From Bacteroidota bacterium (GTDB lineage Bacteria > Bacteroidota > Bacteroidia > B-17B0 > Aurantibacillaceae): a stretch of 64,000 nt of DNA. The stretch covers positions 1 to 64,000 of the forward strand of contig JAFDYB010000016.1 in NCBI GenBank assembly GCA_018267655.1. The letters run 5' to 3'. A model generated the notes under the pieces. The model ran no database searches. It saw nothing but the letters and a program-made list of their open reading frames with translations, and had not been told where the DNA came from. Below are positions 5,761 through 19,980 of this stretch, piece by piece; the stretch's first letter is position 1, and every line of letters starts with the position of its first letter. The position numbers and the translations under genes were made by a program.

Positions 5761-7905
5761 ATGAAAAAAATTTCTGTTTTTATAATCGCACTGGCAATAG
5801 CAGTTACAAATTTAAAAGCTGATGAAGGCATGTGGTTGCCTTATTTATTAGGCAATAAAACTTATGCCGATATGGTAAAGCATGGTTTAAAATTAACTAA
5901 AGAGCAGCTTTACAACATTAACAAACCCAGTATAAAAGATGCAATTGTGTTGTTTGGAAATGGTTGCACCGGAGAAATAGTAAGTAAAGAAGGCTTATTA
6001 TTTACAAACCACCATTGCGGATATAGCGATATAGCTGCAGTTAGCACCCCTGAAAATAATCACTTGAAAAATGGCTTTTGGGCTAAAAGTAAGTCCGACG
6101 AGATTGCCTGCCCCGGCTTATCGGTACAATTTTTAATTAAAGTTGAAGATGTAACAAGTAAAGTGCAAGAACAATTAAAAACAGTTGCCCCAAGCGATTT
6201 GGCAACAAAACTCCCATCTATTTTAAACGAACTTTCAAAAAAAGCATCTGAAAACAGCATATACGAAGTTAGAATCTCAAGTTTTTTTAAAGGCAATCAA
6301 TTTTTACAATTTACTTATTTGCGCTACAAAGATGTTAGATTAGTTGGAACGCCTCCGGAAAGTATAGGTAAATTTGGTGGAGATACTGATAACTGGGAAT
6401 GGCCAAGGCACACAGGCGATTTTTCAATATTTAGAGTTTATATGGGAAAAGACGGTAAACCAGCTGAATACTTAGCCGATAACATTCCTTACTCCCCAAA
6501 TTATTTTTTGCCGGTATCAATTAAAGGCTTTAAAGATGGTGATTACAGCATGATTTTTGGTTATCCTGCAAGCACTAACCGCTACGAAACTACTTATGGC
6601 ATTAAATTAAAATTAGACATCGAAAATCCAAGTGTTGTAAACTTACGCGATACGCGCTTAAAATTAATGCATGCAGAAATGGTAAAAGATCCAAAGGTAA
6701 AACTACAATTAGCCGGCCGTTATGCTCAAATTGCTAACTATTGGAAATTTTTTGATGGTGAGTCAAAACAGTTAATACAGCACAACACTTTAGAACAAAA
6801 GCAAACTATTGAAAACGACTTCCAACATTGGGCAAAAGGCAAAAAAGAATACGAAAATATATTTAGTGATTTAAAAACAGCCTACGACAATTGGCGTCCT
6901 TATGCAAAACATCGCATTTATATTTTTGAAGGAATTTTAGGCTCGCCTCTCATGGCCTTTGCGGTGCAATTAAACCAATTAATTCAAATGCAAGCTGCCG
7001 GCAAATTAAACGATAAAACAATAGCTGGTTTTAAAGCTGCTTACACTAAATTTATTAAAGCAGAAAATATTGCAAGTGATAAAAATACTTTGGCAGCTAT
7101 GTTAAAGGCTTTTTATAAAGATATTGATGCAACACAACAACCTAAAGATTTTTACTCAGCTTTTAAACCTTTAGGAAGCTTAGATAGCGATGTGCCTTAT
7201 CAAAAAATGTCTGAAACAATTTTTTCTAACTCAATGCTATTAGACGAATCTAAGTTTAATACTTTTTTAAATAACCCTGATACAATTGCACTTAAAAAAG
7301 ATATTGCCTTTGACGTTGCCTCAACCTTTTTTGATAATTATAACAACAATTACAATAAGTACTACAATAATTTTATTGCAGAAACCTACCGCCTAACAAA
7401 TTTATATTTAAAGGGTGTTTTAGAGCGAGAGTCTAACAAAGAAAATTTATATCCCGATGCCAATCAAACAATGAGGGTTTCTTACGGAAACGTTAAATCA
7501 TATCAACCGCGCGATGGAGTATTTTACAATCAAATATGCACATCTAAAGGCTTACTTGAAAAATATAAACCCGGCGATTTAGAATTTGATATGCCTGAAA
7601 AATTAATTGATTTGATAAAAGCAAAAGATTTTGGCGCCTACGTTGATAAAGCTAGTAACGACTTGGTTGTAACTTTTATTACAAATAATGATATTACAGG
7701 AGGCAACTCCGGATCGCCGGTATTAAATGCAAGTGGCGAGTTAATAGGGCTTGCATTTGATGGCAACTACGAAGCACTTGGGCACAAAATAGCAATTGAT
7801 AAAAATTTAAACAGAACTATTTGCTTAGACGTGCGCTACTTATTATTTATAGTAGACAAATTAGGTGGTGCTAAAAATTTGATTAATGAGTTAAGTTTAA
7901 AATAA
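5761..7905 (+). CDS. S46-family dipeptidyl peptidase (DPP7-like)
   Basis: A 714-residue exported serine peptidase. Residues 1-20 are a signal peptide ending before DEGMW, the conserved mature N-terminus that binds the substrate amino group in the S46 family. The catalytic triad can be read as His in FTNHHCGY (His85), Asp in the GGDTDNWEWPRHTGDFSIFR region, and Ser in TGGNSGSPV. After the serine motif, LAFDGNYEA carries Gly at the position that is Gly in Porphyromonas DPP7 and Arg in the acid-specific DPP11, so a DPP7-type preference for hydrophobic P1 residues is likely. These enzymes release dipeptides in the periplasm for peptide-based nutrition. It stands alone with a long AT-rich leader. 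Confidence 0.92.
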   Translation: MKKISVFIIALAIAVTNLKADEGMWLPYLLGNKTYADMVKHGLKLTKEQLYNINKPSIKDAIVLFGNGCTGEIVSKEGLLFTNHHCGYSDIAAVSTPENNHLKNGFWAKSKSDEIACPGLSVQFLIKVEDVTSKVQEQLKTVAPSDLATKLPSILNELSKKASENSIYEVRISSFFKGNQFLQFTYLRYKDVRLVGTPPESIGKFGGDTDNWEWPRHTGDFSIFRVYMGKDGKPAEYLADNIPYSPNYFLPVSIKGFKDGDYSMIFGYPASTNRYETTYGIKLKLDIENPSVVNLRDTRLKLMHAEMVKDPKVKLQLAGRYAQIANYWKFFDGESKQLIQHNTLEQKQTIENDFQHWAKGKKEYENIFSDLKTAYDNWRPYAKHRIYIFEGILGSPLMAFAVQLNQLIQMQAAGKLNDKTIAGFKAAYTKFIKAENIASDKNTLAAMLKAFYKDIDATQQPKDFYSAFKPLGSLDSDVPYQKMSETIFSNSMLLDESKFNTFLNNPDTIALKKDIAFDVASTFFDNYNNNYNKYYNNFIAETYRLTNLYLKGVLERESNKENLYPDANQTMRVSYGNVKSYQPRDGVFYNQICTSKGLLEKYKPGDLEFDMPEKLIDLIKAKDFGAYVDKASNDLVVTFITNNDITGGNSGSPVLNASGELIGLAFDGNYEALGHKIAIDKNLNRTICLDVRYLLFIVDKLGGAKNLINELSLK

Positions 7906-9179: not shown

Positions 9180-10418
9180 ATGATTGAATTTGAAAAATTT
9201 AAACTCAAAAACGGTTTAACGGTTATTGTACACGTTGATAAAAGTACTCCTATGGCATGCCTTAATGTTTTATACGATGTTGGTGCTCGCGACGAAGCTG
9301 AAACCAAAACAGGCTTTGCTCACTTATTTGAACACTTAATGTTTGGCGGCAGTATAAATATTCCAAGTTACGATGAGCCACTCCAAAATGTTGGAGGAGA
9401 AAATAACGCCTTTACAACAAACGACATAACTAATTATTATTGTACAGTACCTTCAGAGAACATTGAAACTGCTTTTTGGCTTGAAAGCGATCGTATGCTA
9501 AGCTTGGCATTTACAGAAAAGAGTTTAGATGTACAAAGAAATGTTGTAATAGAGGAATTTAAACAGCGCTACTTAAATCAACCGTATGGCGATGTGTGGT
9601 TGCATTTAAGGCCGTTGGCTTATAAAGAGCATCCCTACAAATGGGCAACAATTGGAAAAGAAATTAGCCATATTGAACAAGCTAAAATGGAAGATGTAAA
9701 AAGTTTTTTTGAAAAATTTTATTGCCCCTCAAATGCAATTTTAGTTGTAGCAGGTAATGTTAATGTAAAGCAAATAAAATTATTATCTCAAAAATGGTTT
9801 GAGTCAATTCCTAAAAAAGAAAAACCATTACGTTCTTTACCTAAAGAACCTATTCAAAAAGAAGCCAGAACCCTTACGCTTAAAAGAAAAGTTCCTTCAA
9901 ATGCAATATACAAAGCATACCACATGTGCTCAAGAGCTAATGAAAATTATCACAGTATTGATTTGATTTCAGATATATTAAGCAGAGGTAATTCGAGCAG
10001 ATTATATAAACGTTTAATAAAAGATAAAAAATTATTTATTGATTTAAACGCTTACGTTACAGGCGACTTAGACGAAGGTTTATTTATAATCAGCGGAAAA
10101 CTCACAAATGATGCAAGCGTTGATGTTGCAGAAAAAGCCATTCAAGAAGAATTAGAATTATTAAAAAATGAATTGGTTAGTGAAACCGAATTGCAAAAAT
10201 GCAAAAATAAAACAGAAAGCAGTATTGTGTACAGCTCATGCGATATATTAACAAAAGCAGCAAACTTAGCAATTAGCGAACTGTTAGGAGACGCTGATTT
10301 CATAAATAAAGAAACTCAAAAATATAACAATGTAACCTCATTGCAAATACAAGAGCAAGCCTTGACATTATTCTCCGAAAAAAATTGCAGCACGTTATAT
10401 TACTTAAAAGAGAATTAA
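9180..10418 (+). CDS. M16-family zinc metallopeptidase
   Basis: A 412-residue peptidase with the inverted zinc motif HLFEH (His48, Glu51, His52) and the downstream acidic ligand in RNVVIEEFKQR (Glu125/Glu126). The second half contains the RGNSSRLYKRLIKDKKLF segment typical of the non-catalytic M16 repeat. Length fits a half-size, mitochondrial-processing-peptidase-like subunit. Such proteins often sit next to an inactive M16 partner; none is found here, so it may act as a homodimer or pair with a distant gene. There is no obvious signal peptide, suggesting a cytoplasmic location. The HD/CoaD-like gene starts 11 bp after its stop, so the two are probably co-transcribed. Confidence 0.9.
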   Translation: MIEFEKFKLKNGLTVIVHVDKSTPMACLNVLYDVGARDEAETKTGFAHLFEHLMFGGSINIPSYDEPLQNVGGENNAFTTNDITNYYCTVPSENIETAFWLESDRMLSLAFTEKSLDVQRNVVIEEFKQRYLNQPYGDVWLHLRPLAYKEHPYKWATIGKEISHIEQAKMEDVKSFFEKFYCPSNAILVVAGNVNVKQIKLLSQKWFESIPKKEKPLRSLPKEPIQKEARTLTLKRKVPSNAIYKAYHMCSRANENYHSIDLISDILSRGNSSRLYKRLIKDKKLFIDLNAYVTGDLDEGLFIISGKLTNDASVDVAEKAIQEELELLKNELVSETELQKCKNKTESSIVYSSCDILTKAANLAISELLGDADFINKETQKYNNVTSLQIQEQALTLFSEKNCSTLYYLKEN

Positions 10419-10429
10419 AAAAACATAGC

Positions 10430-11386
10430 ATGTTAAATCATTTTGAATTTATAAAGAATAAATTATTAACGCTTGGCTTTGATACAAATGTTTTAAACAG
10501 GTATAGCGAACACCATCGTTTTTATCACACGCTTAAACATCTTTATCAACTAATTGATGATTTAAATTTAGTGAATGAATTTAACAAAGAATTGTTTTTA
10601 GCTGTAATTTACCACGATGCAGTTTATTTCCCTTGGGAAAATAATAACGAAGAAAAAAGTGCAGATTTGTTTAAAGAAGAAGCTATAAAATCTACACTCA
10701 CTGCTTCTGAAATTGAAATGGTTGCCAATATCATCATAGACACTAAATCTCACAAGCCAAGTAATCAACTTTCTAAAAAATTTATTACAGCTGATTTAGC
10801 AATTTTTGAAAAACCAATACATGATTTAATAACTTATGAACTCGAAATATTTAAAGAATTTCAATTTGTAGATTATAAAATTTATTTAAACAAACGCATA
10901 GAACTATTAAAAAAACACAACATTTCAGGGAAATTAAATGAATTTATTGCCTACGTTGAAAATAGAAAGCCTTTAATAGCTGTATTCTGCGGAAGTTTTA
11001 ATCCTTTCCATAAAGGGCATTTTAATATTTTATGCAAAGCCGAAAAAATATTTGAAAAAGTAATTATCGCTTTTGGTCGTAACCCTGAAAAGGATACAAG
11101 ATCGTGGCAAACGCCTTTAACTATAAAAAATAGGCAGCAAGAAGAGTACAATGGTTTACTTACAGATTTTATTAGCTCGCTTGAATACGATGTTGTTATT
11201 GTAAGGGGCTTAAGAAACTCAACTGACTTTCAATACGAACAAAATCAATATAGGTATATACAAGAATTAATGCCTCAAATAAAAATAATAAATATTTTTT
11301 GCGATAAAGAATTTGAACACATTAGCTCTAGTGGCATTAGAACCTTAGAAAAATTCGACAAACATCAGCACTATTTATTAGCTTAA
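10430..11386 (+). CDS. HD-phosphohydrolase / CoaD-like adenylyltransferase fusion
   Basis: Two domains in one 318-residue chain. Residues 1-175 resemble the small metal-dependent HD phosphohydrolases of the COG4339 type: RFYHTLKH (His33, His37), IYHD (His62-Asp63), NNEEKSADL and TADLAIF. Residues 181-318 resemble phosphopantetheine adenylyltransferase: GSFNPFHKGH (the HxGH nucleotidyl-transfer motif), then VRGLRNSTDFQYE and ISSSGIR, motifs specific to CoaD instead of other nucleotidyltransferases. CoaD makes dephospho-CoA from phosphopantetheine and ATP. The ATG at 10430 is chosen because earlier in-frame codons overlap the M16 gene and add non-conserved residues. The stop overlaps the lysC stop by 4 bp. 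Function of the HD half is unknown. Confidence 0.85.
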   Translation: MLNHFEFIKNKLLTLGFDTNVLNRYSEHHRFYHTLKHLYQLIDDLNLVNEFNKELFLAVIYHDAVYFPWENNNEEKSADLFKEEAIKSTLTASEIEMVANIIIDTKSHKPSNQLSKKFITADLAIFEKPIHDLITYELEIFKEFQFVDYKIYLNKRIELLKKHNISGKLNEFIAYVENRKPLIAVFCGSFNPFHKGHFNILCKAEKIFEKVIIAFGRNPEKDTRSWQTPLTIKNRQQEEYNGLLTDFISSLEYDVVIVRGLRNSTDFQYEQNQYRYIQELMPQIKIINIFCDKEFEHISSSGIRTLEKFDKHQHYLLA

Positions 11387-18783: not shown

Positions 18784-19980
18784 TTAATTAGTTAGTATGT
18801 AATTTAAAATATCGTTAGCAACTTCAGTTTTTGATTTTAACTCAAAATTAGTGATTTTATTGTGTTTATCAATAATTGAAATTTTATTTGTGTCGTAATT
18901 AAACCCTTCGCCTTTACTTGAACTTGTGTTAAGTATAATTAAATCGGCATTTTTACGCGTCAATTTTTCTTTTGCATTTTCAATACAATTTTCTGTTTCA
19001 AGCGCAAAGCCAATTAGTAATTGATTCTTCGATTTAATTTTTCCGCATTCAAGCAAAATATCGTGTGTTTTTATTAAATTTAATTCTAAGTTATTTTTTG
19101 TTTTTTTTATTTTTTGATTGGCAGTAGTTTCAGGTTTATAATCAGCAACTGCAGCTGCACATATAATAATAGTTGCGTTTTTTATAAGCTGCATAAATGC
19201 ATTGTACATTTGCTCGCTACTTTCAACATTTATAACTGTTATAGTGTTATTTTTAACCGACTCATGTGTTGGCCCTAACACTAAAGTAACTTTAGCTCCT
19301 TCTGCGGCAAAGGCTTCCGCTAAGGCTATACCCATTTTACCGGAACTTCGGTTACCAATATAGCGCACCGGATCAATAGCTTCGTAGGTAGGGCCTGCGG
19401 TTATAATTACATGTTGATTTATAAATTTTAAATGTGTTTGAATGTGTTTAATTAAACTAGCTATTATTTGCTCAGGTTCTTTCATTCGGCCCTGACCTAT
19501 AAGTCCACTAGCAAGTTCTCCATATTCGGCATCGAGCAATTGATAACCTTTTTCTTTTAGAATTGCTATGTTATTTACTACTGTTTGGTGGTTGTACATC
19601 TCTAAATCCATTGCCGGACAAATTAGTACATTTTGTTTTTCTTTATAAGACAAATATGCAGCCAATAACAGGTTATCGCATAAGCCGTGAGCCATTTTAG
19701 CAATAGTATTAGCCGTTGCGGGCGCTATTATAAAATAATTTGCCCATTCTGATAATTTTACATGATTGTTCCAATTGTGGTTATTATCAAAAAAATCAGT
19801 AAGCACTTCATTTTTACTCAGCACACTAATAGTTTGAGGTGTAATAAATTCGAGAGCCGCTTTAGTAGCAACAACTTTTACGTTTGCGCCTTCTTTAACT
19901 AAAAGTCTTATCAAATTAGCGCATTTGTAGGCGGCAATTCCGCCGCTTATCCCTAATAAAATATTTTTTCCTTTTAGCAT
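18784..19980 (-). CDS. coaBC: bifunctional phosphopantothenoylcysteine decarboxylase / phosphopantothenate-cysteine ligase
   Basis: A 398-residue two-domain enzyme performing two consecutive steps of coenzyme A synthesis. The N-terminal flavin domain (CoaC, to ~residue 180) has GISGGIAAYK, the catalytic His73 in NNHVKLS, IAPATANTIAKMAHGLCDNLLL and the PAMDLEMY loop. The C-terminal ligase (CoaB) has ITAGPTYEAIDPVRYIGNRS, SSGKMGIALAEA and AAAVADYKP. A strong terminator-like hairpin abuts the ATG (see 19981-20015), so coaBC expression may depend on read-through or on a promoter inside the hairpin region. Followed by porD after 6 bp. Confidence 0.96.
   Translation of the reverse strand: MLKGKNILLGISGGIAAYKCANLIRLLVKEGANVKVVATKAALEFITPQTISVLSKNEVLTDFFDNNHNWNNHVKLSEWANYFIIAPATANTIAKMAHGLCDNLLLAAYLSYKEKQNVLICPAMDLEMYNHQTVVNNIAILKEKGYQLLDAEYGELASGLIGQGRMKEPEQIIASLIKHIQTHLKFINQHVIITAGPTYEAIDPVRYIGNRSSGKMGIALAEAFAAEGAKVTLVLGPTHESVKNNTITVINVESSEQMYNAFMQLIKNATIIICAAAVADYKPETTANQKIKKTKNNLELNLIKTHDILLECGKIKSKNQLLIGFALETENCIENAKEKLTRKNADLIILNTSSSKGEGFNYDTNKISIIDKHNKITNFELKSKTEVANDILNYILTN

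Follow-up and report, generated by a model that had tools for sequence, protein, structure and literature searches.

Almost all bacteria have a phosphopantetheine adenylyltransferase (CoaD or PPAT; TIGR01510, EC 2.7.7.3), an essential protein that serves as a drug target and has been described as a free hexamer. Hydrolases fused to nucleotidylyltransferases are known. In the NadD-YqeK protein of mycoplasmas (PRK07152/NF005519), a nucleotidylyltransferase of the same superfamily is joined to an HD hydrolase; in JCVI-Syn3A, the YqeK domain hydrolyses NaAD analogues made by the sloppy NadD, and its inactivation causes no growth defect, showing that the HD domain is dispensable for growth there (PMC9426524). 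Human PANK4, a pantothenate kinase-like protein fused to DUF89, is a 4'-phosphopantetheine phosphatase and limits CoA synthesis at this intermediate (PMC9352595). Another enzyme assigned to the HD family, E. coli AcpH, releases 4'-phosphopantetheine, which is the substrate of CoaD (PMC8557913). HD phosphohydrolases have a characteristic signature consisting of an Arg three residues before the first His and the metal-binding residues H...HD...D, and most of them are mononuclear; two additional histidines are required in YqeK, and still more in the HD phosphodiesterases (H..HD..H..HH..D) (PMC8177086). CoaD itself also occurs as part of a bifunctional protein, CoaD-CoaE (PPAT-DPCK), whose second domain catalyzes the next step of the CoA pathway.

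The gene analysed here lies in a window (the whole stretch of DNA that was studied) of 64,000 nucleotides and encodes an N-terminal HD domain, of a family that we take to be COG4339, followed by a CoaD-like domain. NadD-YqeK has the opposite order (NadD N-terminal, YqeK C-terminal) and a different transferase, and the HD domain of our fusion belongs to a family other than YqeK and does not contain the six-residue dinuclear motif of the latter, H..HD..H..H..D. PANK4 resembles the fusion in that a phosphatase is joined to a CoA-pathway protein, but the two share no homology: PANK4 is eukaryotic, DUF89 is not an HD domain, and its partner is a (pseudo)kinase and not CoaD. AcpH forms the substrate of CoaD but has no sequence relation to the HD domain of the fusion that could be detected with hhalign, and the CoaD part of the CoaD-CoaE proteins is from another lineage. 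In the literature searched, we found no publication on an HD-CoaD fusion or under the name COG4339, and neither the pairing, nor the CoaD subfamily, nor the helical remnant that we call the stub is described there. This agrees with the preliminary description of the locus, in which the fusion had been regarded as undescribed.

Results

One reading frame encodes an HD domain and a CoaD-like domain

The frame (10430-11386, plus strand) contains no internal stop between its ATG and its stop codon, and 12 nt separate its ATG from the stop codon of the M16 peptidase gene upstream (Table 1). All motifs on which the proposal of a single two-domain chain had been based were found in it: RFYHTLKH (residues 30-37), IYHD (60-63), GSFNPFHKGH (188-197), VRGLRNSTDFQYE (258-270) and ISSSGIR (298-304). 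No Pfam domains other than HD and CTP_transf_like were found in the protein. A sequencing or assembly artefact can be ruled out: both domains share one frame in 34 of the 87 genomes that represent the window's order, and the same holds for two further lineages.

One of these 34 genomes has a TAA codon at the hinge. There (L021/L048, G010:C221), the fusion is split between the HD domain and the stub, and the downstream frame of 181 aa contains the last part of the stub and CoaD; this is either a split gene or a base error. Elsewhere in the window, an S46 peptidase is encoded at 5761-7905 (PF10459, 2.2e-216).

Table 1 Features of the HD-CoaD locus and of related loci
Feature	Position	Strand	Details and basis
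HD-CoaD fusion gene	10430..11386	+	318 aa; ATG 10430, stop 11384-11386; homologues found
M16 peptidase gene, directly upstream of the fusion	9180..10418	+	adjacent in 60/67 relatives examined
HD phosphohydrolase core, COG4339-type, residues 1-128	10430..10813	+	AF2 model; alignment to 20 free HDs; missing from short forms
HD C-terminal helix pair (stub), residues 129-164	10814..10921	+	helices H130-143 and H149-162 (model); stub alignment
Linker helix, residues 170-178, and conserved P181	10922..10975	+	model and stub alignment
CoaD-like nucleotidyltransferase domain, residues 183-318	10976..11383	+	PF01467, TIGR01510, PDB and Foldseek matches
R30-x-x-H33, Arg three residues before the first metal-binding His	10517..10528	+	invariant in 20 free and 33 fused HDs
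H62-D63, metal-binding HD doublet	10613..10618	+	invariant in the HD alignment
D122, final metal ligand of H...HD...D	10793..10795	+	invariant in the HD alignment
GSFNPFHKGH, ATP-binding (S/T)xGH-type loop	10991..11020	+	S189 = Ec T10, H197 = Ec H18, H194 in place of invariant T15
RGLR	11204..11215	+	R259 = Ec R88, R262 = Ec R91; roles PMC12784347
ISSSGIR	11321..11341	+	S299-S301 = Ec S128-S130; R304 = Ec position 133 (Arg133, H. pylori PPAT)
coaBC, earlier CoA steps	18784..19980	-	TIGR00521 7.4e-124; ORF
Operon-like Crp/Fnr-type regulator, COG4339 HD and CoaD-CoaE genes	L142:1209-3716, L185:1407-3907, L147:825-3290		overlapping, one strand

The CoaD-like domain is the sole PPAT candidate of the genome

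The C-terminal part of the protein matched PF01467 at 1e-11 to 1e-12. Its best match by far was the CoaD model TIGR01510 (4.7e-25, 88.4 bits), although this score is under the curated cut-off of 103.3 bits, as are the scores of every fused form and every short form (see below) of the window's order. The NadD model TIGR00482 gave 33 bits, with 112 needed. All PDB sequence matches were CoaDs, save one weak match to an NMN adenylyltransferase, and the top matches listed by Foldseek for the full model were all CoaDs. The suggestion that the first motif (NPFHKGH) is closer to NMN-type enzymes was therefore not borne out (88 bits for CoaD versus 33 bits for NadD). Indeed, SFNPF also occurs in canonical free CoaDs of Bacteroidota, with N in 13 and F in 24 of 37 sequences, and the H of NPFHKGH alone is peculiar to the fused-type subfamily.

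The domain has the nucleotidyltransferase fold, the (S/T)xxxxxxxGH loop and the ISSS motif. The residues important in H. pylori PPAT (Thr10, His18, Lys42, Leu74, Arg88, Arg91 and Arg133; PMC12784347) correspond to S189, H197, K221, L244, R259, R262 and R304 of the fusion. In a comparison of 37 free CoaDs with 78 fused or short rows (38 full, 40 short), these residues were conserved, except at position 10, where S takes the place of T (the majority state in free CoaDs as well), and at R88, where a few rows have K. N106 was kept in 37/37 free CoaDs but in 0/78 fused or short rows, where it is replaced by I, M or L, and T15, which is invariant or nearly so in free CoaDs, was changed to H in 78/78. 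Furthermore, the acidic residue 134 (E134), likewise invariant or nearly so in free CoaDs, was replaced mainly by T or N, M105 by Y or F and L102 by Q, and E. coli residues 46-55 (FTLEER helix) were missing. N106, E134, M105 and L102 presumably line the pantetheine arm. Thus, the domain is like the described PPATs in its fold, its ATP loop, the chemistry of K42, R88, R91, ISSS and R133 and, by elimination, its position in the pathway, but differs from them in the fused HD domain or stub, the substitutions, the deleted helix and the sub-cut-off score. As the residues handling phosphate and ATP are intact and the pantetheine-side positions differ, PPAT chemistry with a remodelled arm pocket is to be expected. 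The changed positions may also reflect a drift of the substrate, as had been proposed in the preliminary description. One further residue, C187, is confined to full forms (18/38 versus 0/40 short forms) and seems to be lineage-specific.

Five CTP_transf_like genes were counted in the window's genome (3.41 Mb, 99.95% complete). Only two of them matched the CoaD model: the fusion gene and a NadD-like gene on contig C21, the latter weakly (27.6 bits); the gene on C37 is HldE-like by sequence, and the remaining two do not match the model. Hence, the profile search of the CTP_transf_like genes revealed no other, stand-alone CoaD in this near-complete genome, and the fused domain is its sole PPAT candidate. 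The coaBC gene is located elsewhere in the window, as had been noted before, at 18784-19980 on the minus strand, and CoaE is encoded on contig 55. With these enzymes present and a single CoaD candidate, the CoaD step falls to the fused domain unless an unknown enzyme serves it, which argues strongly for the predicted role of this domain as the phosphopantetheine adenylyltransferase of the genome.

The HD domain retains the active-site residues of HD phosphohydrolases

The HD part of the window's protein scored low against Pfam (PF01966, 13.9 bits); a homologous fusion cleared the cut-off of this model (25.6 > 22 bits). The AF2 model of the domain is all-helical (pLDDT 95.7), and its best PDB matches were the HD hydrolase 2pq7 and phosphodiesterases, with probabilities of up to 1.00, yet an E-value of 0.04 and TM scores of 0.5-0.6. 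Searches for a named Pfam or NCBIfam family gave weak matches only (HD, DUF4202, PRK10119/YedJ and GapS6a), and no PDB relative was found by sequence past YedJ (E 0.016). Neither a Pfam model nor a solved structure of COG4339 was found in the Pfam and PDB searches.

We aligned 20 free-standing HD proteins with 33 fused HD domains from the window's order and from G163, a genome of another family. In the HD alignment A2, sixteen columns were invariant throughout. Residues R30, Y32, H33, H37, H62, D63, Y66, N73, E74, S77, T105, D122, E143 and R156 were identical in every one of the aligned HDs, free or fused, and H108 was nearly invariant. Of these, R30, H33, H62-D63 and D122 fit the published HD-phosphohydrolase signature (PMC8177086), and a single extra conserved His (H108) is located between the HD doublet and the final Asp. 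The fusions appear to belong to the same HD family as the free COG4339 proteins of Bacteroidota and have identical catalytic residues, but they have lost D120, G127, Y133 and G155 (invariant in the free proteins), R141 and P148 (nearly so) and the C-terminal element E..AR.NL..E. Because of these losses, the substrate or assembly of the fused HD may have shifted relative to the free family.

Omega, taken from the closest pairs, with an overall dS of no more than 0.9, was 0.12-0.15 for the HD core versus 0.004-0.026 for CoaD; more distant pairs were saturated. The HD domain is therefore under purifying selection, though weaker than that on CoaD. Being constrained, it is probably an active hydrolase, a prediction for which the conserved residues provide good grounds.

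A divergent CoaD subfamily has replaced canonical CoaD across a clade

The window's order comprises 87 genomes of one family and ten genera. The fused CoaD type was found in 70 of them: 34 have the full HD-CoaD and 37 a short form of ~200-215 aa, with both forms in G101. Canonical free CoaD was found in nine genomes (genera g25, g29 and g32), all without the fused type, and eight genomes, several of them incomplete, have neither. G010 alone among the 70 also shows a CoaD over the cut-off, within a 420-aa CoaD-CoaE fusion; as its bin consists of 350 contigs, contamination is possible. Canonical CoaD has thus been replaced by a divergent CoaD subfamily across a clade. The named homologues are from uncultured Bacteroidetes/Bacteroidia MAGs, e.g. 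UBA2475 and KatS3mg027.

Several genomes deserve a separate remark. In G101 (C_No_T20_C_bin.136), the full and the short gene (L061 and L090) each follow an M16 gene of their own, reflecting either duplication or bin mixing. The PPAT-DPCK gene of G010 (L129, G010:C67), a genome of the window's genus, is located downstream of a fructose-1,6-bisphosphatase-like gene and is possibly a contaminant. Neither CoaD type was found in G008, G061 and G099, which are 92-98% complete; either contigs are missing or a third solution exists.

Outside the order, the fusion is present in G163 (family f39), alongside a canonical CoaD, and in f89, a Bacteroidota family of another class than the window's, where full forms occur in genera g229 and g277 and short forms in g287; g284 of the same family has canonical CoaD. 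In a tree with 22 free CoaDs, including those of the hosts' relatives, all fused and short CoaDs of these three lineages group as a single clade (support 100/100), and so do the fused HDs in a tree with 40 free HDs (100/100). The simplest reading of a single fused clade in both trees is one fusion event followed by descent or transfer, so that the fusion in the window's order and in the two distant Bacteroidota lineages apparently has one origin. Directly upstream, an M16 peptidase gene is found at 60 of the 67 loci of the order that were examined, for full and short forms alike. In G163, an AMP-binding (acyl-CoA-ligase-type) gene takes this place, and in f89 the upstream gene is not M16 either, the short gene of g287 following a thiolase gene.

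The HD core was lost repeatedly, but its last two helices were retained

Full and short forms are interleaved in the CoaD tree, which requires seven changes, at least four of them forced by well supported branches, and a single short clade in the genus g33 subset was rejected by the AU test (p = 0.001). The tree of the upstream M16 proteins scatters full and short forms as well (12 changes, of which four or more are forced). In f89, the short forms go back to a separate loss within the family, next to G595, whose fusion (L161:121-1257) has a decaying HD site with H108 changed to R, Y66 changed to F and an altered spacing after H33. As the sister of the f89 short forms, G595 has the appearance of an intermediate of HD loss. 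In g33, the short N-termini resemble one another, whereas their CoaD domains and M16 neighbours group with full forms; given this discord, recombination that exchanged the N-terminus is no less plausible than repeated deletion. A pair of loci, L089 and L064, has nearly identical CoaD domains with a short and a full N-terminus, respectively, which suggests such a recombinational exchange. Candidate HD remnants upstream of the short genes of G035 and G013, matches with internal stops, proved to be spurious extensions; no HD remnant was found upstream of these two genes, both of which follow the M16 gene.

The last two HD helices, i.e. the stub, are kept in every short form of the order; in some f89 short forms, the stub is more degenerate. 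In the window's order, the short forms largely have residues E137, F141, Q145, Y152, R156, L160 and P181 in common with the full ones. The positions of E137, F141 and Q145 are unconserved in free HDs (A/T/Y, R and mixed, respectively), which suggests that they probably took on a new role, contacting CoaD.

Some free COG4339 genes are also linked to CoaD

Among 41 sampled loci with free COG4339-type genes, the HD gene overlaps a CoaD-CoaE gene (PF01467 + PF01121) on the same strand at three (L142 and L185 of family f21, L147 of f47), with a Crp/Fnr-like gene upstream of the HD gene. By a rough estimate, the chance of any given gene being a direct neighbour is ~1 in 1,000. Like the fusion, these loci associate a COG4339-type HD, here through gene overlap, with a CoaD that is part of a bifunctional CoA-pathway protein. 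In the HD tree, the linked HDs cluster together (85/85) and lie outside the fused clade, indicating one further association that is independent of the fusion, and all three may stem from one event. At the other 38 loci, a CoaD gene is not adjacent; since free COG4339 genes are mostly not beside CoaD, the family may have a general substrate. G429 has a further separate CoaD match, and the Crp-HD-CoaDE unit may be an accessory CoA-making unit.

Discussion

We see an even chance that the protein is a bifunctional CoA-pathway enzyme, combining the sole PPAT of the cell with an HD phosphohydrolase directed at metabolites of the PPAT step. Its C-terminal domain would convert 4'-phosphopantetheine and ATP to dephospho-CoA and PPi. 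The N-terminal domain, probably a mononuclear metal-dependent phosphohydrolase, would cut a phosphate bond of one such metabolite: most likely, it would dephosphorylate 4'-phosphopantetheine or damaged forms of it, or hydrolyse mis-adenylated products, and would thereby serve CoA synthesis as a valve or as quality control. This choice of substrates is weakly suggested by analogy. The HD domain would be useful yet dispensable and for this reason lost repeatedly, and its last two helices, now a structural part of the CoaD domain, would be retained. The lack of a growth defect with inactive YqeK in JCVI-Syn3A fits such repeated loss. A role beside the CoaD step in recycling, proofreading or flux control, which had been put forward in the preliminary description, is the best reading of the data, and it is strengthened by the second, independent gene link. 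More specifically, the HD domain may destroy 4'-phosphopantetheine, its damaged forms or mis-made dephospho-CoA as an on-enzyme valve or repair unit within the remodelled, clade-replacing CoaD; we propose this tentatively, with somewhat less than an even chance of being correct.

It is doubtful, though the chance is still appreciable, that the CoaD part is a PPAT and the HD domain has an unrelated substrate, either a nucleotide or a signalling compound, for example as a house-cleaning (d)NTPase or an Ap4A-type or ppGpp-type hydrolase, with the fusion being a tolerated accident that serves expression or localisation only. Known phosphatases with the R..H..HD..D motif act mostly on nucleotides and alarmones (PMC8177086), free COG4339 genes are usually found away from CoaD, and the HD domain is often lost; however, this reading does not sit well with two independent genomic links to CoaD (the fusion and the overlapping operon) or with the fact that three lineages have kept the fusion with its active site intact. 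AcpH-like recycling, in which the HD domain would detach the 4'-phosphopantetheine of holo-acyl carrier protein and pass it on to CoaD for CoA to be rebuilt, appears improbable: the HD family has no detectable profile similarity to E. coli AcpH (hhalign probability 0.1%), its motif is that of an HD phosphatase (R three before H and one extra His, H108) and not of an HD phosphodiesterase, and the reviewed data on AcpH and PptH do not support salvage of Ppt (PMC8557913), even though AcpH does release the substrate of CoaD and an HD protein beside CoaD-CoaE would form a release-and-rebuild unit.

The survival of the terminal helix pair after the loss of the rest could also mean that the helices alone matter and that the HD domain is a structural or allosteric module, for oligomerisation or CoA sensing, without relevant catalysis. 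In line with this, CoaD has lost its own FTLEER helix, for which the stub may compensate, and the active site of the distant G595 fusion is decaying. Nevertheless, the metal-binding and Arg residues are invariant in the 33 fusions of the window's order and G163, and omega is about 0.12 in close pairs, making a purely structural role quite improbable. We regard it as highly improbable that the C-terminal domain is an adenylyltransferase for a related substrate, with some unknown enzyme of unrelated type providing the PPAT. The score under the TIGR01510 cut-off, the changes at N106, T15 and E134 in 78/78 fused or short rows and the coexistence with a canonical CoaD in G163 would suit a diverged function, but the window's genome and nearly all of the clade lack another CoaD, CoaBC and CoaE are present, the catalytic residues are kept, and CoaD is under the strongest purifying selection in the protein.

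As the fused-type CoaD scores under the curated cut-off, annotation pipelines will miss it and may report the CoA pathway as incomplete. In this subfamily, a fragment of a lost enzyme domain is now a fixed part of an essential enzyme, and the full, decaying and lost HD domains represent a natural series for studying the contribution of metabolite control to CoA synthesis. The two independent genomic links to CoaD offer a route to the function of an uncharacterised hydrolase family and, if the reading of the HD domain as an on-enzyme valve or repair unit is true, this would be the first function for the COG4339 family.
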